Shown here piece after piece: positions 41-36,666 of a DNA stretch of 47,171 nt. How positions within the stretch are numbered: the first letter of the stretch is position 1; the number at the start of each line of letters is the position of its first letter. The position numbers and the translations under genes were made by a program. The stretch is from the NCBI GenBank assembly GCA_009903405.1, contig PRCZ01000007.1, positions 1 to 47,171 on the forward strand, in the 5' to 3' direction. The notes under the pieces were generated by a model. It did not search any database. It was given only the letters and a program-made list of their open reading frames with translations, and had not been told where the DNA came from. The DNA is from Candidatus Methanophaga sp. AG-394-G06. GTDB lineage: Archaea; Halobacteriota; Syntropharchaeia; Alkanophagales; Methanospirareceae.

Positions 41-487
41 ATGAAAGTACTGGTGTATCCACCGAATAGCATGATACTAGCGGATTTGGTGGAAAGAGGC
101 GGGCATGAGCCCGTAGTATTAATGAAAGAAATAGGAGAACACGTGAGGGAGGCTGAGATAGACGCACCACCGCTGAATATCACCGAGGAGGACTTGAAAA
201 GGGCGTTGAGATATGTCTCCGTGGAAGAACCAGCAGGCCTAAAAGGGCGAATAGGGCTGCTTGCACCTCTACTGGAGGCGGCAGAAGCTTCGATTATATT
301 GCGCGATGCACCCCCTACTTTTGGCTGCATGGGCTGCGCAGTTGCAGACGAATTCTTCAAGTATCTGATAAGGCGGCGCGAGATACCGACATTAGAAGTG
401 ACGTATGAAGGCGGCGAGAAAGTGGAAGAGATGGTATCGGAAGTAATGACGTTTTTAGAGCAGTTAAAGAAGGAAGGGCAAAGATAA
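41..487 (+). CDS. methanogenesis marker protein 5 (MMP5)
   Basis: A 148-residue cytosolic protein with no signal peptide or membrane segment. It resembles the MMP5 family: the N-terminal stretch with PPNSMILADLVERGGHEP and a central PTFGCMGCA motif (Cys96 and Cys99) are what I recognise. MMP5 has no assigned enzymatic role; the family is restricted to MCR-containing archaea and its genes cluster with other markers near MCR-maturation genes. It starts one base after the preceding stop and ends one base before MMP15, so the two are almost certainly co-transcribed and probably work together. Length is normal for the family. Binding of a metal or Fe-S cluster by the CxxC is inference. Confidence 0.82.
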   Translation: MKVLVYPPNSMILADLVERGGHEPVVLMKEIGEHVREAEIDAPPLNITEEDLKRALRYVSVEEPAGLKGRIGLLAPLLEAAEASIILRDAPPTFGCMGCAVADEFFKYLIRRREIPTLEVTYEGGEKVEEMVSEVMTFLEQLKKEGQR

Positions 488-488
488 A

Positions 489-1706
489 ATGGAGAAGGTG
501 AGAGTTGCACAGATATCTTGTGGTACCGAATACAGTGGTATCCAATGGATATTTGACGACATAGCAGAGCGGGTAGGTATAGAACTGGTCTATCCAGAGA
601 TGGAATTGTCGGAGGTGGAACTAGCCTGTAAAGAGTTTGGATTCGAGGTAGAAAGCCCCAGCCTGAATATGATGATGGCAAGAGCGATATCCATGTTAGA
701 TGACCCTACGATAAAGGGTGCCTTACTCCTCACTTGCTTCAAATGTGCTGAGGGCACAATAGTAAAAGATACGATAAGAAGGTTCCTGCAGGAGAGAATT
801 GATATACCAATTATAGTATATTCAAATGTGGAGAAGCCGAAGGAGATAGAGATATATTCGAGGCTGGAAGCGCTGAGGACGTTAATAGCGCGGAAGTCGC
901 TTTTAATGCGTGAGAAGCAGGAAGGGATCACAATTGGCGTTGATTCCGGCTCTTCTACCACAAAAGCGGTGGTGATGAAGGATAATGAGATAGTGGGGGA
1001 AGGCTGGATACCAACAACAGACCCAGTAGAAAGTGCGGATGAAGTGATAGAATCGGCGTTAAAGGGTGCGGGTATTTCGAGAACGGATGTGGATGCGATT
1101 GGTGTTACAGGTCATGGACGTGAACTTGTAGGCAAGCATGTGAAGGCGGCACTCAATTTAGAAGAGGTGAGTGTAATCGCGAAAGGAGCGGCTTTGCTTT
1201 CTCGACAGCATAAAGGCGATGCAACAGTGATTGATATAGGTGGAATGAACAATAAGTTGATACTGATGCGAGATGGTATAGCAACTAGTTTCAATTTAGG
1301 CGGTATTTGTGGTGGCTCATCCGGGCGGTTTCTGGAAGTGGCATCGAATAGATTGGATGTGGACATCTCGAAGTTGGGACAACTGGCGCTGAAGTCAAAA
1401 GTGAAACACGTGTTGCAGAGCTATTGCATGGTATTTGGAATACAAAGTCTTGTCGTTGCTCTTGGTTCCGGGGTGAAGCCAGAAGACGTAGCTGCTGCTG
1501 CTTGCAGGTCGGTTGCGAACCAGGTGTATGAAAATCAGATACAGGAGATGGAGATGAGACCACCGATTATCTTTGTTGGCGGTGTATCGCTAATAGAAGG
1601 GGTGACGCACGAATTTGAGACTATGCTCGGCATTGATATTACGGTCCCGCCTAATTCACAGTACGCAGGTGCAGTAGGTATTGCTACGCTGGCGTCCGGC
1701 GTTTAA
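489..1706 (+). CDS. methanogenesis marker protein 15 (BadF/BcrA/HgdC-like ATPase)
   Basis: 405 residues in two parts. Residues 1-145 are the extension typical of MMP15 (starting VRVAQISCGTEYSG, with a TCFKCAE motif). Residues 148-405 form an ASKHA-fold ATPase of the 2-hydroxyacyl-CoA dehydratase activator type: phosphate loop VDSGSSTTKA at 151-160, VIDIGGMN, and two cysteine motifs, GGICGGSSGRF and SYCMVFG, equivalent to the cysteines with which dimeric activases hold a bridging 4Fe-4S cluster. Known activases use ATP to drive low-potential electron transfer; for MMP15 the substrate is not established, but activation of methyl-coenzyme M reductase or its modification machinery is a reasonable inference. 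It follows MMP5 directly and its TAA abuts the stop of the convergent pmbA-like gene. Confidence 0.88.
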   Translation: MEKVRVAQISCGTEYSGIQWIFDDIAERVGIELVYPEMELSEVELACKEFGFEVESPSLNMMMARAISMLDDPTIKGALLLTCFKCAEGTIVKDTIRRFLQERIDIPIIVYSNVEKPKEIEIYSRLEALRTLIARKSLLMREKQEGITIGVDSGSSTTKAVVMKDNEIVGEGWIPTTDPVESADEVIESALKGAGISRTDVDAIGVTGHGRELVGKHVKAALNLEEVSVIAKGAALLSRQHKGDATVIDIGGMNNKLILMRDGIATSFNLGGICGGSSGRFLEVASNRLDVDISKLGQLALKSKVKHVLQSYCMVFGIQSLVVALGSGVKPEDVAAAACRSVANQVYENQIQEMEMRPPIIFVGGVSLIEGVTHEFETMLGIDITVPPNSQYAGAVGIATLASGV

Positions 1707-9059: not shown

Positions 9060-11126
9060 ATGCAAAAGCACAAGGTTTTGCAACTTATCGCGGAAGCGGC
9101 AAGAAAGAAGCAAACTGAATTGGAACTATCCTGGAATGAACTGAAGACATTGCCGGCGGAGATAGGCGAGCTAACGAACCTTACCAAGCTTGACCTATCC
9201 TATAATCAACTGAAGAGATTGCCAGCGGAGATAGGAAAGCTAACGAACCTTACCACGCTTGACCTATCCCTCAATGAACTGACGAGATTGCCGGCAGAGA
9301 TAGGGAAGCTAACGAACCTTACCGAGCTTGACCTATCCAGCAATCAACTGAGATCATTGCCGGCGGAAATAGCGGAGCTAAAAAACCTTAGCGCGCTTGA
9401 CCTATCCAACAATCAATTGAAGACATTGCCGGCGGAGATAGTGGAGCTAAAAAACCTTACCCTGCTTAACCTATCCGAAAATCCCCTGGAATCCCCCCCT
9501 CTGGATATTGCCAACAGGGGGATTGAAGCAATAAGATCTTATTTCAAATCATTGGAAGGAGAAAAACAACCATTAAACGAAGTAAAAGTGTTGTTGGTAG
9601 GTGATGGCGGAGCAGGAAAGACCTCATTGGTAAAACAAGTGTTGGGTGAAGAATTTGATAAGCATGAATCACAAACGCATGGTATAAATTTAAGAGATTG
9701 GAAAGTGGAAGAAATACATGTCCATTTCTGGGATTTTGGCGGTCAGGAGATTATGCACGCCACACACCAGTTCTTCTTATCAAAACGGAGCCTTTACCTT
9801 TTGGTTTTGGACGGTAGGAGAGACGAAAAGACCGAATACTGGCTCAAACATATAGAGAGTTTCGGCGGTGATTCGCCTATTTTAGTGGTTCTGAACAAAA
9901 TAGATGAGAATCCGAGCTTTGAAGTGAACCGTAAATTCTTACAGGAGAAATACAAGGGCATAAAGGGCTTTTTTCGTGTTTCGTGTGCTGAGGGCCAAGG
10001 AATAAAAGATTTTACCGGCGCTCTGAGCAAAGCAGTGGCAAACGTAGAGCTTATCGAAACCATGTGGCCAAAAACATGGTTCAATGTAAAGACGCAATTG
10101 GAAGAGATGACAGAAAATTTCATCAGTATTGACAAGTATAAAGAAATGTGCACGAACGAAAAGATAACAGAAAAAACTGATCAGGATACACTTGTAGATT
10201 TTCTGAACGATTTGGGCGTGATACTACATTTCAAGGATTTTGAGTTGCTAGACACGCATGTGCTAGAACCGAAATGGGTAACAAACGCCGTGTACAGGAT
10301 AATCAATTCAAAAGAATTAGCAGCGTGTAATGGCGTTTTAAAATTAGATTTATTAGATGAGATATTGAAAAAGGAAGCGGAAGACGATTATTATTACCCC
10401 TCTGGGAAATACAGGTACATCATAGATTTAATGAAGAAATTTGAGTTGTGCTATGAGATAGATAAAGAGACAGTACTGTTACCAGACCTGTTAGAAGTAC
10501 CAGAGCCCGAATTTGATTTTGACTATGGTGCGGCTTTGAAATTTGTCATTGACTATGATTTCTTACCCAGGTCCGTTATGCCGCGGTTTATAGTAAAGAT
10601 GCATAACGATATAGCGAGTGAATTGCGTTGGAGAACGGGCGTGGTGCTGGAAGAGAAAGCTTTTCGTTCTACTGCAGTTATTAAAGCAGATGAACGGGAT
10701 GAGAAAATATATATTTATGTTGATGGGGAACAAAAAAGAGATTATTTCTCCGCAATCTTATTTACTTTCCGGGGAATAAATAGAAGCTTCGAAAAATTAA
10801 AAGCAATCGAAAAAGTTCCTTTGCCGGATGAACCAGAAGTAACAGTGAGTTATGAGCATTTAATCAGATTGGAGAAAAAGGGTATTGAAGAGTTTATGCC
10901 AGATGGTTCAGAAAACGAATATAAGGTAAAAGATTTGTTGGGAACAATATACGTAGAAAAGAAGACAGAAGAAGAGATTATAACGATTTTAAGAGAACTT
11001 AAAGATAAATCGGATACTGAAGAAACTTTGCTACAAAAGGCGGAGGATGTTGTTATATTACAGCCAAACTTCATGGGGCTAGGGATAGATGTGAAAAAAG
11101 TGATTAAGAAGTTATTTCGTAAATAA
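9060..11126 (+). CDS. LRR-Roco GTPase (LRR-Roc-COR protein)
   Basis: 688 residues. Residues 20-150 hold about six 23-residue leucine-rich repeats of the LPAEIGxLxNLTxLDLSxNxL type. Residues 175-345 are a Roc GTPase: P-loop GDGGAGKTS (181-189), switch region WDFGGQE, and NKID for guanine specificity. Residues 350-600 match the COR dimerisation domain. The tail is acidic/coiled and ends PNFMGLGIDVKKVIKKLF. Roco proteins are dimeric GTPases; prokaryotic members have no settled pathway. No membrane segment or signal is visible. The unit is preceded by a small ORF and followed by a decayed paralog, so it is probably expressed as a monocistron or with the leader ORF. LRR units are nearly identical at DNA level, indicating recent repeat exchange. 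Confidence 0.92.
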   Translation: MQKHKVLQLIAEAARKKQTELELSWNELKTLPAEIGELTNLTKLDLSYNQLKRLPAEIGKLTNLTTLDLSLNELTRLPAEIGKLTNLTELDLSSNQLRSLPAEIAELKNLSALDLSNNQLKTLPAEIVELKNLTLLNLSENPLESPPLDIANRGIEAIRSYFKSLEGEKQPLNEVKVLLVGDGGAGKTSLVKQVLGEEFDKHESQTHGINLRDWKVEEIHVHFWDFGGQEIMHATHQFFLSKRSLYLLVLDGRRDEKTEYWLKHIESFGGDSPILVVLNKIDENPSFEVNRKFLQEKYKGIKGFFRVSCAEGQGIKDFTGALSKAVANVELIETMWPKTWFNVKTQLEEMTENFISIDKYKEMCTNEKITEKTDQDTLVDFLNDLGVILHFKDFELLDTHVLEPKWVTNAVYRIINSKELAACNGVLKLDLLDEILKKEAEDDYYYPSGKYRYIIDLMKKFELCYEIDKETVLLPDLLEVPEPEFDFDYGAALKFVIDYDFLPRSVMPRFIVKMHNDIASELRWRTGVVLEEKAFRSTAVIKADERDEKIYIYVDGEQKRDYFSAILFTFRGINRSFEKLKAIEKVPLPDEPEVTVSYEHLIRLEKKGIEEFMPDGSENEYKVKDLLGTIYVEKKTEEEIITILRELKDKSDTEETLLQKAEDVVILQPNFMGLGIDVKKVIKKLFRK

Positions 11127-11551: not shown

Positions 11552-14173
11552 ATGGAAAATGACATGATTTTGCGTGTTATCGAGAAAGCTGCAAGAAATA
11601 AGCAAACCAAATTGGAACTATCCGGAAATCAACTGGAGAGATTGCCGGCGGAGATAGGAGAGCTAAAAGACCTTACCACGCTTTACCTGACCAGAAATCA
11701 ACTGGAGAGATTTCCAACGGAGATAGGAGAGTTAAAAAGCCTTACTACGCTTTACCTATCCGAAAATCGACTGACTTCATTGCCAGCGGAGATAGGAGAG
11801 CTAAAAAACCTTACCGAGCTTGACCTATCCGGGAATAAACTGAAGAGATTGCCGGCGGAGATAGGGAAGCTAAAAAACCTTACCTGGCTTAACCTATCCC
11901 TAAATAAACTGGAGAGATTGCCGGCGGAGATAGTGAAGCTAAAAAACCTTACCTCGCTTGACCTATCCGGGAATCAACTGAAGACCTTGCCGGGGGGGAT
12001 AGTGAAGCTAACGAACCTAACCAAGCTTTTCCTATCCGACAATCAACTGAAGACATTGCCGGCGGAGATAGAGGAGCTAACGAACCTTACCATGCTTAAC
12101 CTATCCGAAAATCAACTGAAGAGATTGCCGGCGGAGATAGTGGAGCTAAAAAACCTTACCATACTTTTCCTATCCAAAAATCCGCTGGAATCGCCACCAC
12201 CAGAAATAGCAGAACAGGGAATAGAGGCAATTTTTGAGTATCTGCGTCACCTCCCAGAGGAAGCAATAGAGCACAATGAAGCAAAGATGATCTTGGTAGG
12301 TCAATGAGATGTAGGAAAGACCTGCCTTGCAAAACGATTGATTTATGATGAATTCATAGAAGATAAAAGCACAGAAGGAATAGACATCTTAAAATGGGCA
12401 ATTACTGCACCCACAGCAGACGAGGAAGAGATAAAACTAAATGTATGGGACTTTGGAGGTCAGGAGATTTATCACGCCACGCATCAGTTCTTTCTCACCA
12501 AACGATCACTCTATCTACTAGTTTGGAATGCACGCAAGTCGCAGGATTATGAACATATTTACTACTGGCTGCATACAATAGAGGCTTTCGGAGAGGACAG
12601 CCCGATAGTATTAGTGCTGAGCAAATTGAACGAGCGGGACGATGATCTGAATATGAAAGAGCTAAGAGAAAAATTCCCGCAAATTGTCGGCTTATACAAA
12701 GTGGATAGCGAAGACGGAAAAGGAATTCCCACCTTGAAGGACATAATAAGTGAAACCGCCTGGCACCTGCCGCACATGCGGACTCCCTGGATCGAGTCAT
12801 GGTACAAGGTACGAGAACGATTAGAGCATGACGGACGGAATTGGATAGAATACGAAGAATTCAAGCAAATCTGCCAGTCAGAGGGATTGGATAACAAACA
12901 AACGGATATTTTAGATAAATCCCTGCACTATCTGGGCGTCATTATTCATTTCCAAGATAGATTGGAACTGCGCGACATGGTAATTTTAAATCCAGAATGG
13001 GCAACAAAGGCAGTGTATAAGATTCTGGATACGCAATCGATTTTAGATCGAGGCGGGATCTTATTGCACAGTGAATTAGACCAAATCTGGGATTCCAATA
13101 TTTATCCGCTGGATATTTTCCCAAAATTACTGGGACTGATGAAGAAATTTGAATTGGCGTTTGAACTGCCAGATAAGAAGAGCCACCTGGTTGCGGAACT
13201 ACTACCCAAAACAGAACCGGAATTTGAGTGGGATGAAACGAACAACTTGCGGTTTTATTACCGCTATGATTTTCTGCCTGCAGGAGTGATAACTCGCTTC
13301 ATTGTACTTATGCATGAGGATTTGGAGGATAAACCAGATGGGACTCATTTATGCTGGCGTGAAGGTGCGGTCTTGCAACGGGAAGATACACGTGCTCTTG
13401 TTAAGGTCATGCCACTGAAAAAACTGATTGAGATAAAGATCAATGGCAGCAGAAAACGGGAATTACTGGCTATCCTCCGCAACCAGTTTGACCACATTAA
13501 TAGTAAGATAAAAAAAGTAGCGGTTGCGCAAGAAATACCGTGTAATTGTTCAGAGGGATGCCCACATAGATTTGATTATATCCAATTATTAAATGCAGAA
13601 AACAAAGGTAAAATAACTGTTGATTGTCCAGAGAGCTGGGAAGAAGTACAGGTTTCGTTATTGTTAGACGGCTACAAAAAGAAAGAAGATAGAATGAAAG
13701 AAACAGAGGATATTTTTAAAGTTTTTAAAGAAAAAGGCATGCATGTTGAAATAAGCCCACAGATAGATGTAAATGTAAACTCTAAAGTAATCCAAAAAAC
13801 AGAAGTAGAAGCAAAAGCAAAAGCAGAAACAAATATTGAAATAAATTTAAAAATAGATTTACCTGCAATCCAAACGGAATTTCGTGAATTTAAAAGAGAA
13901 GTGACAAAATTGGATGACAAATTGGATGAAGAATTAGAAGATTTAGAAGACGATCTTTTAGAAATTACTCCTGCTTCTGAAGAAGGCAAGGTAAACAAAG
14001 CAATAAATAAATTATCGCTTTTTATGCAGAAACTAAAAGATAAAAATTCTAGATTTAGTAGAATAGTCAAAGGTACCAAAAAAGGAATAGAATTGGCACA
14101 AAAACTTGCTGTGACGTATAATAAATTTGCACAAGCGCTAGGATTAGATCCAGTCCAAGATTTATTTTTGTAA
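11552..14173 (+). pseudogene. second LRR-Roco gene, interrupted by TGA in the P-loop
   Basis: One frame of 873 codons broken by a single TGA at 12305-12307; the ORF track splits it into 11552-12307 and 12338-14173. The first part has about nine 23-residue LRRs. The stop falls in LVGQ-*-DVGKTCLAKRL, where GGA (Gly) would give a normal Walker A motif, so one GGA-to-TGA change explains it. Downstream follow WDFGGQE, a COR domain, a Cys-rich CNCSEGCPH segment, a coiled-coil acidic region and a C-terminal helix ending LAQKLAVTYNKFAQALGLD. Without readthrough the cell would make an LRR-only protein and possibly a P-loop-less Roc-COR from ATG 12338. Other genes here use TGA as stop, arguing against recoding. 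The rest is not visibly degraded, so the mutation is recent or a sequencing error. Confidence 0.8.
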
Positions 14174-23492: not shown

Positions 23493-24686
23493 ATGAGGGA
23501 TGTAGCGATAATAGGAATTGGACATACTAAGTTTGGGCGCGCATCGAAAGCGTCACTTGAATTGTTCTCTGAGTCGGTATTGCAAGCAATTGACGATGCA
23601 GGCGTGGAATTAAAGGACATAGAAGCTCTATTCCAGGGCGCTGCACTCGCAGGCTTTGAAGAAGGGCAGGTAATGTCTGCGGCATTTTCTGCCGCTGACC
23701 TCAACTTAGGGCCGATACCTGCAACGCGATATGAAGGTGCATGCGCATCCGCATCAATTGCGATACGAGATGCCGCCATGTGGGTCGGTTCCGGGGAATA
23801 TGATATGGTTATTGCAGGCGGCATGGAGAAAGCACTGACAATGGGTACGCTATTTGCAACACGGACTTTCGCGATGGCATGTCACGCGCCAACAGAAGGG
23901 CCTGTGGGACTCACGTTCCCGGCAGTGTTCGCAATGGCGGCAATGCGGTATGCCAAGAATTATGACATACCATTAGAGAAACTGCGAGAGAAAATGGCGC
24001 ACGTTTCGATAAAGAATCACAAGCATGGCGCTTTAAACCCGTTGGCGCAGTTTTATAAGAAGTTAGGTGCTTTGAAGCTAGAAGAAGTAATAGACTCGAA
24101 GATGGTAGCAGACCCGCTGTCGCTTCTGGATTGCTGTCCCTTCTCCGATGGTGCATCTGCACTTGTGCTCTGCGCCGCCGAGGAAGCGCGGAAATATACT
24201 GATGAGCCTGTTTATATCTTGGGTACCGGACAGGGCTCAGGAGGTCCGTTATCCAAGATGGAAGACCTAACAAAGCCCGTTTCTCGCATAAGTTCTGCGA
24301 AGGCCGCATTTAAACAAGCAGGACTCACACCAAAAGATATAGACCTCGTAGAAGTTCACGATTGTTTTACTATTGCTGAACTGATCGCACTCGAGTGTAT
24401 GGGCTTCTTTGATTGGGGCGAAGCAGCAGATGCAGTCGAAGAAGGGCAAACGGAGCTTGGCGGTAAAATACCCGTTAACATGTCTGGCGGATTAATAGGT
24501 AAAGGGCATCCGATAGGCGCAACCGGGGCGTCTCAGATTTACTGGATCATTAAGCAGATGCGGGGCGAAGCAGCAAAAGGGAATCAAATTGACCCTGTTC
24601 CTGAGTATGGCATGACCGATACACTTGGTGGTGACTTCGGGACATTATGTCATATTATACTCGGAAGGTCGAAGCGAAAGAAATAA
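23493..24686 (+). CDS. thiolase family protein (acetyl-CoA C-acetyltransferase type)
   Basis: 397 residues of the archaeal/SCPx-type thiolase group. The nucleophilic cysteine is in YEGACASASIA (Cys84), a catalytic histidine in VEVHDCFTIAE, and the C-terminal GKGHPIGATG loop supplies the second histidine; the final Cys of mitochondrial thiolases is replaced, as usual in this group. Thiolases join or cleave acetyl-CoA and acyl-CoA. A DUF35 protein follows after 16 bp, as in archaea where DUF35 bridges thiolase and HMG-CoA synthase for mevalonate synthesis, but no HMG-CoA synthase is here; instead a 3-hydroxyacyl-CoA dehydrogenase completes the operon. A GAGGGGG ribosome-binding sequence precedes the ATG. 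A beta-oxidation-like or acetoacetyl-CoA reducing module is therefore the better inference. Confidence 0.9.
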   Translation: MRDVAIIGIGHTKFGRASKASLELFSESVLQAIDDAGVELKDIEALFQGAALAGFEEGQVMSAAFSAADLNLGPIPATRYEGACASASIAIRDAAMWVGSGEYDMVIAGGMEKALTMGTLFATRTFAMACHAPTEGPVGLTFPAVFAMAAMRYAKNYDIPLEKLREKMAHVSIKNHKHGALNPLAQFYKKLGALKLEEVIDSKMVADPLSLLDCCPFSDGASALVLCAAEEARKYTDEPVYILGTGQGSGGPLSKMEDLTKPVSRISSAKAAFKQAGLTPKDIDLVEVHDCFTIAELIALECMGFFDWGEAADAVEEGQTELGGKIPVNMSGGLIGKGHPIGATGASQIYWIIKQMRGEAAKGNQIDPVPEYGMTDTLGGDFGTLCHIILGRSKRKK

Positions 24687-25194: not shown

Positions 25195-26055
25195 ATGAAC
25201 AAAAAGAAAGTTTGTGTTGTAGGTGTTGGTATAATGGGGAGTGGAATAGTGCAGACATGTGCACAAGCGGGTTACGATGTGTCCGCAGTATACAAGACAG
25301 AAGAATCTTTTGAAAAAGGGCTTGGAACGATAAAAAAGAACCTCTCGAGACTTGTAAAGAAGGAGCGTATGGAGCAAGCGGAGGTAGATAGACTTCTGTA
25401 TTCGATACGTGCAAATGCAACTATGTATTTAGAAGAGGGAGCAAAGCACGCGGATTTCGTGATAGAAGCAGTATCTGAAGATTTAGAACTGAAGAAGGAG
25501 CTATTTCGGATATTTGGTCTGATCTGTCCGGAACATACCATCCTTGGGAGTAATACATCTACATTTCCTATTACTGCTTTAGCGGCGGCAACAACGAGAC
25601 CCGATAAGGTAATTGGGGTCCATTTCATGAATCCCGTGCCTCAGATGCGTGGTGTGGAGATAATAAAATCGTTGCGGACTTCAGAAGATACGCTAAATAG
25701 CACGTTGGAGTTTGTCCATTCGCTGGGTAAAGAGACAGTGGTTGTGAATGATTCTCCTGGTTTCGTCACAAGCCGAATGATGTGTCTCATACTAAACGAG
25801 GCGGTAAAGATGCGTGAATGCGGGCTCGCATCCGTAGAGGATATAGATAAGATACAAAAACTCTCTTTCAACTGGCCTCTTGGCCCTTTTCAACTTTTGG
25901 ACTTGATCGGGATAGACATTGTGGTTGCAGTGCTCAATACAATATATAACGAGACGGGCTTTGAGCGATTCAAACCCGCTGTTCTTATGGTGCAGATGGT
26001 AAGAGCAGGATGGACAGGACAAAAAGCAGGGAAAGGTTTCTATGATTATAAGTGA
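25195..26055 (+). CDS. 3-hydroxyacyl-CoA dehydrogenase
   Basis: 286 residues, a single-function dehydrogenase interconverting 3-hydroxyacyl-CoA and 3-oxoacyl-CoA. Visible: Rossmann motif VGVGIMGSGIVQTCAQAG, NTSTFPIT, the catalytic His region VHFMNPVPQMRGVEII, NDSPGFVTSRMM, and the C-terminal domain ending AGKGFYDYK. The MRG in place of the common MKLVE is a small deviation. Length equals that of FadB2x/PaaH-type enzymes without a hydratase domain. It is the third gene of the operon after thiolase and DUF35. Together they can run the last two steps of beta-oxidation, or the reverse reactions; no enoyl-CoA hydratase or acyl-CoA dehydrogenase is in the window. Whether the cofactor is NAD or NADP cannot be read. 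Confidence 0.93.
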   Translation: MNKKKVCVVGVGIMGSGIVQTCAQAGYDVSAVYKTEESFEKGLGTIKKNLSRLVKKERMEQAEVDRLLYSIRANATMYLEEGAKHADFVIEAVSEDLELKKELFRIFGLICPEHTILGSNTSTFPITALAAATTRPDKVIGVHFMNPVPQMRGVEIIKSLRTSEDTLNSTLEFVHSLGKETVVVNDSPGFVTSRMMCLILNEAVKMRECGLASVEDIDKIQKLSFNWPLGPFQLLDLIGIDIVVAVLNTIYNETGFERFKPAVLMVQMVRAGWTGQKAGKGFYDYK

Positions 26056-29403: not shown

Positions 29404-29829
29404 ATGGATGAATATATCAAATTCTTAGATAGGGTTTTGAAGCAATTACCAAGTACGAAAACTACGGATTCTCGTTTCTCTATACCTCAACTAAAGGTAT
29501 TTGTAGAGGGAAAGACCACCATATTCGACAATTTTGATGTTGTTTGCAATTACATAAATCGGGAACAGGAGCATGTAATGAAATTTTTATTAAATGAACT
29601 GGGGACAGCGGGTAAGATAATAGGAGATAGGGCAATTTTCCAGGGACGATTCAACACAAGTGAAATAGAGCATCAAATTCAGCGCTATTTGGATGAGTAT
29701 GTGCTGTGCTGGGAGTGTAAGAAGCCAGATACACACTTCACGAAGATGGATCGTGTGTGGGTGCTGAAATGTGATGCATGCGGCGCTATTCGACCTATTA
29801 TAAAAAGAAAAGGCATGAAAGTCAAATAA
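29404..29829 (+). CDS. eif2b: translation initiation factor aIF2 subunit beta
   Basis: 141 residues, full length. The N-terminal helix and central alpha-beta domain (GKTTIFDNFDVVCNYINRE, HVMKFLLNELGTAGKIIGDR, AIFQGRFNTSEIEHQI) are followed by the Cys4 zinc-binding domain (CWECKKPDT...CDACGAI). With the alpha and gamma subunits it carries initiator Met-tRNA to the small ribosomal subunit. It follows the tRNA-Ser gene in the plus-strand translation cluster, and its 3' end overlaps the end of the convergent MMP12 gene by eight bases. Confidence 0.96.
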   Translation: MDEYIKFLDRVLKQLPSTKTTDSRFSIPQLKVFVEGKTTIFDNFDVVCNYINREQEHVMKFLLNELGTAGKIIGDRAIFQGRFNTSEIEHQIQRYLDEYVLCWECKKPDTHFTKMDRVWVLKCDACGAIRPIIKRKGMKVK

Positions 29830-30787
29830 TCCCTTTTTCTACTTCTATGCCCAATATGTCCCTCTCGCCGTAGAAAACGTCCTTAGCTATTTCTGCACAG
29901 CCTATCGCAGCACTGTACCTTGTCAATGTCTTGCTTTTAACATCCAAAAGTCGATTTATTCTCGCCGTTATACCTGCTTTTTCTCCCTCCGAGCCGGTCA
30001 AGAAAACTTCACCGTTGGGTACATCGTAATCACGCATGAGAACGCGCATCGCGGAAATCTCCATTGCAACAAACAAAGACAGTGCATCGGAAAACAACGC
30101 CTCGTCCTTTTCTTTCTGCCATCTCTTACGTAAGATGCCGGCATTCGAGAAAGCTTCGTTTGCGCTTAGCTCACCCTCGTCAATCAATCTCAAAAGCTGA
30201 AGGTCAATTGGTCCTTGATACAAGCCAGGTGCGAGGATACATGCATCTATCGCCCCTATTATTGTCCCTTTTGCAACAGCCATCGTAACGGTATTAGAGC
30301 TGATGTCAGAGAAAATGAAGTTCTCATTTCCCTTTTTATATATGTTATATGCAACACCCACCTTTTCTGGGCTCGCGCAATGAGAAAAGAACTTCATCCG
30401 AGGGTCTATTTTTTCGCTACCTGCATGTATGCCCGGTATCATTATCGTGGGTACTCCTGCATCTTTTATCGCATCAAACACCTTAGTGCCACCACCGATC
30501 CTTGTACCAGCACCTTTTTCACTTTTTAGCCCTCTATTCTTTACCTTTTTTATATTCTTTATAATGGAAAAATCATCACCCATAGAATAAGTCATGGCCG
30601 TTAATTTTATCTCTTCTATATCTAATCCAACCTCTACCGCTCTTATTATCTTCTCGCCGCTCATCTCTGCGGCAGCCTTTCGCGAAAGCTCGAAAACCGC
30701 TATATCTCGCCTTTTCCCATCTTCTAACCCTGCGAATCTTATTCCGACAGTACCATGATCCACGCCCACGAAAGTAGTATTAGACAT
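29822..30787 (-). CDS. methanogenesis marker protein 12 (UPF0285)
   Basis: 321 residues. FVGVDHGTVGIRFAGLED near the start, MTYSMGDDFS, KVKNRGLKSEKGAGTRIG, FSDISSNTVTMAVAKG, GAIDACILAPGLYQGPIDL and ANEAFSNAGIL match UPF0285, an ASKHA-fold (sugar kinase/actin-like) family found in methanogens and relatives. The family has no known substrate. The N-terminal DHGT and the DISSN phosphate motifs suggest ATP binding. It is the last gene of a minus-strand block with UPF0179, egsA, an RPA-associated gene, MEMO1 and rpsB, not next to mcr or other marker genes. The 3' end overlaps aIF2-beta. Confidence 0.9.
   Translation of the reverse strand: MSNTTFVGVDHGTVGIRFAGLEDGKRRDIAVFELSRKAAAEMSGEKIIRAVEVGLDIEEIKLTAMTYSMGDDFSIIKNIKKVKNRGLKSEKGAGTRIGGGTKVFDAIKDAGVPTIMIPGIHAGSEKIDPRMKFFSHCASPEKVGVAYNIYKKGNENFIFSDISSNTVTMAVAKGTIIGAIDACILAPGLYQGPIDLQLLRLIDEGELSANEAFSNAGILRKRWQKEKDEALFSDALSLFVAMEISAMRVLMRDYDVPNGEVFLTGSEGEKAGITARINRLLDVKSKTLTRYSAAIGCAEIAKDVFYGERDILGIEVEKGII

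Positions 30788-34653: not shown

Positions 34654-36666
<2,013 letters not shown>

Follow-up and report, generated by a model that had tools for sequence, protein, structure and literature searches.

How archaea attain the very low potential for reduction of the F430 nickel in methyl-coenzyme M reductase (MCR) is a long-standing question, and the locus described here asks whether two adjacent methanogenesis marker proteins have a part in it. The window, a stretch of 47,171 nucleotides that forms the start of contig C97, comes from the 1.53 Mb metagenome-assembled genome (MAG) of Candidatus Methanophaga sp. AG-394-G06, which is 75% complete. On the forward strand, MMP5 (methanogenesis marker 5, DUF2112; 41..487), a protein of 148 residues with a single alpha/beta domain, is followed by the 405-residue MMP15 (methanogenesis marker 15; 489..1706). 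The initial annotation had described the two genes as directly adjacent with one base between them, and the ORF coordinates agree: the TAA of MMP5 ends at 487 and the ATG of MMP15 begins at 489. The family assignments, for which sub-threshold profile scores had been named as the refuting outcome, stand above the curated cut-offs. MMP5 scores 178.6 bits against TIGR03271 (cut-off 140.25) over profile positions 1-142 of 142 and 170.6 bits against Pfam DUF2112 (cut-off 25), and MMP15 scores 536.9 bits against TIGR03286 (cut-off 455.75) over positions 1-403 of 404. The earlier observation of an MMP5-MMP15 pair is confirmed. A further suggestion was to check whether the upstream gene is MMP6, MMP17, or McrC. 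Just 40 bases of contig precede MMP5, and its congeners L033 and L034 carry RadB upstream of it with an MgtE-like transporter before RadB, so the upstream gene is none of the three. Downstream of MMP15 lies a TldD/PmbA-type gene on the opposite strand; between these neighbors, none of A2, mmp3, mmp6, mmp17, and mmp7 is adjacent to the pair in the window's genus. A sigma-70/terminator scan of positions 1-2000 returned no more hits than shuffled sequences, and the promoter type is the wrong one for archaea.

The rest of the genome provides some context. One mcrA is present, on contig C90, with a score of 739.5 bits that is just below the methanogen cut-off. Its product contains the cysteine-rich stretch CCAAAGCGSAVACATG, which is typical of ANME-1 McrA. 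Together with the two MMP15 copies of the family and the several divergent McrA copies of its sister family, both described below, this stretch leads us to class the genome as ANME-1-like. The window itself holds a third methanogenesis marker, MMP12, at 29822-30787 on the reverse strand (TIGR03281, 336 bits; cut-off 181), and a gene resembling MMP12 is also found near the mmp cluster in another locus (L051, 626-1588, reverse strand). A Roco-type protein is split into an LRR part (11552-12307) and a Roc-COR part (12338-14173), two forward-strand ORFs 30 bases apart that adjoin an intact LRR-Roc-COR gene (9060-11126) and are either a fragmented duplicate or the product of misassembly. Genes for a thiolase-family protein (23493-24686) and a 3-hydroxyacyl-CoA dehydrogenase (25195-26055) lie near each other on the forward strand and are possible beta-oxidation remnants of an alkane-oxidizing ancestor. 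Additionally, this archaeal genome encodes an NAD-dependent DNA ligase of bacterial type (34663-36666, forward strand).

Residues 147-405 of MMP15 (927..1703) make up a BcrAD_BadFG/HgdC-type activase ATPase domain (PF01869, 193.8 bits), and residues 147-400 score 276.5 bits against the activase family TIGR00241 (cut-off 125.4). The initial annotation had credited MMP15 with the ATP loop and both cysteine motifs of the activases, and all of these are there. The ATP-binding loop DSGSSTTK (residues 152-159; 942..965) is kept in all 36 tested sequences of the two MMP15 copies, a and b, discussed below, and a second activase motif reads DIGGMNNK (residues 249-256). Alignment with HgdC predicts C274 in GGICGGSSGRF (1308..1310) and C313 in SYCMVFG (1425..1427) as ligands of a subunit-bridging [4Fe-4S] cluster; both residues are invariant in 51 sequences. 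The activase half of the AF2 model (pLDDT 88.8, pTM 0.88 for MMP15) matches HgdC, MbdP/MbdQ, and DCCP-R in Foldseek with TMt values of 0.81-0.92, and the same proteins are matched by sequence, which supports the reading of MMP15 as activase-like. The closest solved structures are 1hux, 9gai_D, 4eht, and 7yyl_E, with the highest quoted TMt, 0.92, belonging to 9gai_D. Judged from sequence and model together, the fold is that of an ASKHA ATPase with a DxGS loop. MMP15 has the ATPase fold, the DxGS and GG loops, and both bridging-cluster cysteines in common with the HgdC/HadI activators (1hux, 4eht), but it adds a 146-residue N-terminal cysteine domain and is encoded in a genome without a dehydratase partner. 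The ATP-dependent electron activation module of class I benzoyl-CoA reductase (MbdONPQ/BzdNOPQ) is also homologous to the C-terminal domain; unlike MMP15, however, it belongs to a substrate-reducing enzyme with HGD-D subunits and no link to MCR. A search for HGD-D proteins (PF06050) came up empty in the window genome and in 23 of the 24 genomes searched in its family; the single match, in the remaining genome, was weak and did not reach the cut-off. The canonical dehydratase partner being absent, MMP15 is unlikely to serve one, and the generic dehydratase activase was rejected as a candidate.

The N-terminal domain of MMP15 (residues 1-146; 489..926) has no Pfam match and does not reach the PF06050 gathering score. 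It contains three invariant cysteines that had escaped the earlier description: C11 in an SCG motif (519..521) and C83 and C86 in a CxxC motif (735..746), all conserved throughout 51 sequences. By hhalign, the domain aligns with the HGD-D C-terminal domain with a probability of 87, an E value of 4e-6, and a score of 46 against a set of 21 HGD-D proteins, the maximum among 72 unrelated decoy families being 22; the probability with half HGD-D sets was 52-82. C86 aligns with a cysteine conserved in 95% of the 21-protein set. From these alignments, the domain probably adopts an HGD-D/double-cubane-like alpha/beta fold and is likely related to the HGD-D C-terminal domain and the double-cubane proteins. 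MMP5 had been noted to have a CxxC of its own, and this motif (C96, C99; 326..337), in a loop after strand 83-88, proved to be invariant in 45 diverse MMP5 sequences. Modeled by AF2 with a pLDDT of 88.7 and a pTM of 0.84, MMP5 aligns with HGD-D in hhalign with a probability of 53 and a score of 36.8, dropping to 11-24 with half HGD-D sets, and C96 falls on the same conserved HGD-D C-terminal-domain cysteine column in the profile alignment. A double-cubane protein came near the top of an hmmsearch profile search of the PDB at a nonsignificant E value of 0.13, and Foldseek placed DCCP at ranks 3 and 5 and BzdNO at rank 12, all nonsignificant. We regard a relationship of MMP5 to the HGD-D/double-cubane proteins as a lead. 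Neither MMP5 nor the MMP15 N-terminal domain appears to be a relative of McrC/Mmp7, with probabilities of at most 2.3 where the McrC-Mmp7 comparison gave 96. A likeness of MMP5 to FtsH (PDB phmmer, E 0.02) covered 40 residues, was gone when a profile was used, and is taken as chance.

Among characterized systems, DCCP:DCCP-R (7yyl/7yzm) can be compared with both proteins, since the MMP15 activase matches DCCP-R (TMt 0.81) and MMP5 is weakly like DCCP. DCCP, however, is a three-domain protein apart from its activase, whereas MMP15 appears to fuse one such domain and MMP5 is a single domain. A free-standing HGD-D-type Fe-S domain has a precedent in a sulfur-transfer enzyme without an ATPase, likened here by its description.

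Both families had been described as limited to MCR-bearing archaea, and the gene pair turning up in genomes without MCR had been named as a refuting outcome. Across 295 sampled Halobacteriota genomes MMP5 tracks MCR almost perfectly, and the proposal survives this test as well. MMP5 occurs in 175 genomes and McrA in 174, with both in 167 (Fisher p 4e-62, a value that ignores shared ancestry). All 8 genomes with MMP5 and no McrA are incomplete MAGs (61-89%), and one of the 7 with McrA and no MMP5 is a weak match (E 2e-4). When only genomes at least 90% complete are counted, MMP5 is found in 137 and McrA in 140. Within one family (f9), MMP5 accompanies McrA in 5 of 5 genomes, and the listed genomes lacking McrA also lack MMP5.

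The neighbors of the pair in other lineages connect it to MCR activation more specifically. The order A2-mmp3-mmp6-mmp5-mmp15-mmp17-mmp7 recurs in loci of many lineages, and in Methanobacteriales nifB comes after mmp17 in the arrangement mmp3-mmp6-mmp5-mmp15-mmp17; nifB is outside the cluster in most lineages seen. In JdFR-42, acr alpha, a small gene, and mmp3-mmp17-mmp7-mmp6-mmp5-mmp15 share one strand, and a cfbC-like gene on the opposite strand is next but one to mmp15. A Nezhaarchaeota contig has the pair near mcrA and a gene for an MCR glutamine methyltransferase. Markers 7, 17, 15, 5, 6, and 3 together with AtwA were already reported as consecutive in Methanohalophilus in the 2011 ProPhylo study (PMC3226654). 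The 2025 cryo-EM study of the M. maripaludis MCR activation complex identified McrC, Mmp7, Mmp17, Mmp3, A2, and DUF2098 as its components, with three [8Fe-9S-C] clusters and neither MMP5 nor MMP15 in the purified complex (PMC12176620). Supplied with Ti(III) citrate and ATP, this complex can activate MCR in vitro, and A2 already explains the need for ATP. Ti(III) could not be replaced by DTT, from which its authors inferred missing auxiliary proteins, and the further Mmps of the nifB-followed cluster were presumed to be needed for physiological MCR activation; nifB follows the mmp cluster in M. marburgensis as well (PMC12176620). The A2, mmp3, mmp17, and mmp7 genes of this complex are the ones that cluster with mmp5 and mmp15 in many lineages. 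The two-component activation or maturation role proposed in the initial annotation is supported in part: a link of the pair to MCR activation has strong backing from synteny. As an idea it is not new: the gene order appeared in print in 2011, and the 2025 study already suggested that the other Mmps take part in activation.

ANME-1 departs from this arrangement. Its cluster is dispersed, with mmp3, mmp6, mmp7, and nifB sited elsewhere in the genome, and yet mmp5 and mmp15 are neighbors in all 21 ANME-1 genomes with coordinates listed. Compared with the consecutive ProPhylo cluster of Methanohalophilus (PMC3226654), only mmp5-mmp15 is kept joined. The other components have not disappeared from the window's family: MMP3 is above the cut-off in 41 of 45 genomes, MMP6 is matched in 42 of 45, NifB is above the cut-off in 36 of 45, and full-length MMP7 occurs away from the pair. 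In the window genome, at 75% completeness, nifB was not found. The MMP6 matches in many ANME-1 genomes run across in-frame stop codons, perhaps at match ends.

MMP15 also differs in number. All 133 MMP15-bearing genomes outside the window's order have a single copy (180 genomes have MMP15 in all), while within the order the window's family has two copies in 37 of 45 genomes and its sister family f2 in 2 of 2. In the window genome, copy b alone is seen, probably because the bin is incomplete. A 58-sequence MMP15 tree groups this divergent copy b with Syntropharchaeia and JdFR-42 (support 100/97) and puts copy a among the methanogens (100/97). The MMP5 tree matches the position of copy b, at lower support (82/91). 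AU tests rejected copies a and b as one clade, the result of a lineage-specific duplication (p 0.0034), and also an arrival of copy a with a Methanofastidiosa-type mcr operon (p 0.0023). Catalytic motifs are intact in 15 of 15 copy b sequences, and 21 copy a sequences keep all motifs save for the SYC pattern, missing in one. The contexts of copy a vary (L177-L194, L196, L197, L198) and include ribosomal-protein genes, antiporter-like membrane subunits, and nifB, which is next to copy a in one ANME-1 genome (G076). In the two sister-family genomes (L040, L041), MMP5 adjoins neither MMP15 copy, so the pair is separated there. Several divergent McrA copies were also observed in this sister family. 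Published work traces the MCR of ANME-1 to transfer and holds that an ancestral ACR was lost (PMC10989977, PMC9576274, PMC9894754), and each ANME-1 genome has a single mcr operon (PMC9894754). Given this loss and the tree placement, copy b and MMP5 look like an older pair of the alkane-oxidizer type. Since f2 also has copy a, the latter is not simply a marker of acquired MCR.

We tentatively favor a model in which MMP5 and MMP15 form a two-component, ATP-gated Fe-S module of the MCR/alkyl-CoM reductase activation machinery. It draws on the family scores, the activase fold and cysteines, synteny, the shared distribution with MCR, the persistence of the pair after cluster break-up, the lack of HGD-D proteins over the cut-off, the MMP15 N-terminal domain, and the reported failure of DTT to substitute for Ti(III) (PMC12176620). 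MMP15 would combine, in one chain, an ATPase of the HgdC or 'archerase' type with one HGD-D-like Fe-S domain, and MMP5, the second small alpha/beta CxxC protein, probably completes or docks to that domain. Two activase domains would share a bridging [4Fe-4S] cluster that takes up ferredoxin-level electrons and whose potential is lowered by ATP binding and hydrolysis. By way of a cysteine site of the MMP15 N-terminal domain and MMP5, the electron could then reach the [8Fe-9S-C] relay of Mmp7/McrC and finally F430, where Ni(II) would be reduced to Ni(I). Cluster binding, physical interaction, electron direction, and acceptor are what we infer in this model. Several observations weigh against it. 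The purified M. maripaludis complex works with Ti(III) and ATP without MMP5 or MMP15, and A2 covers the ATP dependence (PMC12176620). The likeness of MMP5 to HGD-D is weak, with Foldseek giving no significant MMP5 match, and the nifB linkage in Methanobacteriales suits cluster maturation equally well.

Cluster maturation is the main rival to electron delivery, and the present data fit both. Although we consider it rather doubtful, the pair might assemble or insert the [8Fe-9S-C] clusters of McrC/Mmp7, with MMP15 acting as an ATP-gated reductant or as a carrier/insertase of NifB-made clusters and MMP5 as a scaffold or carrier. The position of nifB after mmp3-mmp6-mmp5-mmp15-mmp17 in Methanobacteriales, M. 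marburgensis included (PMC12176620), and beside copy a in G076 would suit such a role, as would the absence of the pair from the purified activation complex, and the superfamily of the HGD-D-like domain holds [8Fe-9S] double cubanes (PMC11971306). However, nifB stands apart from the cluster in most lineages and is unlinked to the MMP5 pair in ANME-1, and activases are known as electron donors rather than cluster insertases. We think it quite improbable that the pair works instead in F430 or CoM/CoB metabolism, in the repair of oxidized MCR, or at some other redox step linked to MCR. Co-occurrence with MCR alone does not discriminate against such a step, and a cfbC-like gene does lie near mmp15 in JdFR-42, but the conserved neighbors are genes of the activation complex and not of cofactor synthesis.

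Copy b could be a relict, left over from the alkyl-CoM reductase system of the ancestor, with methanogen-type copy a serving the ANME-1 MCR, as its grouping and that of MMP5 with Syntropharchaeia and JdFR-42, the transfer of MCR with loss of ACR (PMC10989977, PMC9576274, PMC9894754), and two MMP15 proteins to one mcr operon (PMC9894754) might suggest. Against this stand the intact catalytic motifs in 15 of 15 copy b sequences and the adjacency, retained in 21 of 21 genomes, to an MMP5 that has no second copy and is maintained; the Alkanophagales-like f2 genomes, moreover, hold both copies, and copy a does not simply follow acquired MCR. These points leave a relict a very improbable explanation. 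That MMP15 is an ordinary activase of a 2-hydroxyacyl-CoA dehydratase or benzoyl-CoA reductase, as the sequence and fold of its C-terminal domain could be taken to mean, is the least credible reading of all. MMP15 tracks MCR, and since neither the window genome nor 23 of the 24 family genomes encodes a PF06050 protein, this reading is refuted unless a divergent dehydratase is hidden in the quarter of the genome that the assembly lacks.

A more speculative extension of the electron-delivery model, unlikely as a whole, would make MMP5 and the MMP15 N-terminal domain a minimal double-cubane-type Fe-S module, driven by the activase and charging the [8Fe-9S-C] wire. ANME-1 and its sister family would then run two such pumps of different origin, one inherited along with MMP5 from alkane oxidizers and the other methanogen-like, dividing labor as in no other sampled Halobacteriota lineage. 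In the literature searched, which excludes most subscription journals and all supplements, we found no paper specifically on the function of MMP5 or MMP15, nor any account of the two-lineage MMP15 complement, the retention of the pair after cluster break-up, or the HGD-D-like N-terminal domain. We take these findings, together with the lack of a canonical dehydratase partner in these genomes, to be new. The published activation complex still depends on the artificial reductant Ti(III), and a dedicated ATP-driven donor universal with MCR, if the model is true, would offer a direct candidate for the physiological reductant that is missing. It would also tie MCR activation to the archerase and double-cubane chemistry of anaerobes, and the two ANME-1 MMP15 lineages would offer a natural comparison of alkane-type and methanogen-type activation factors.
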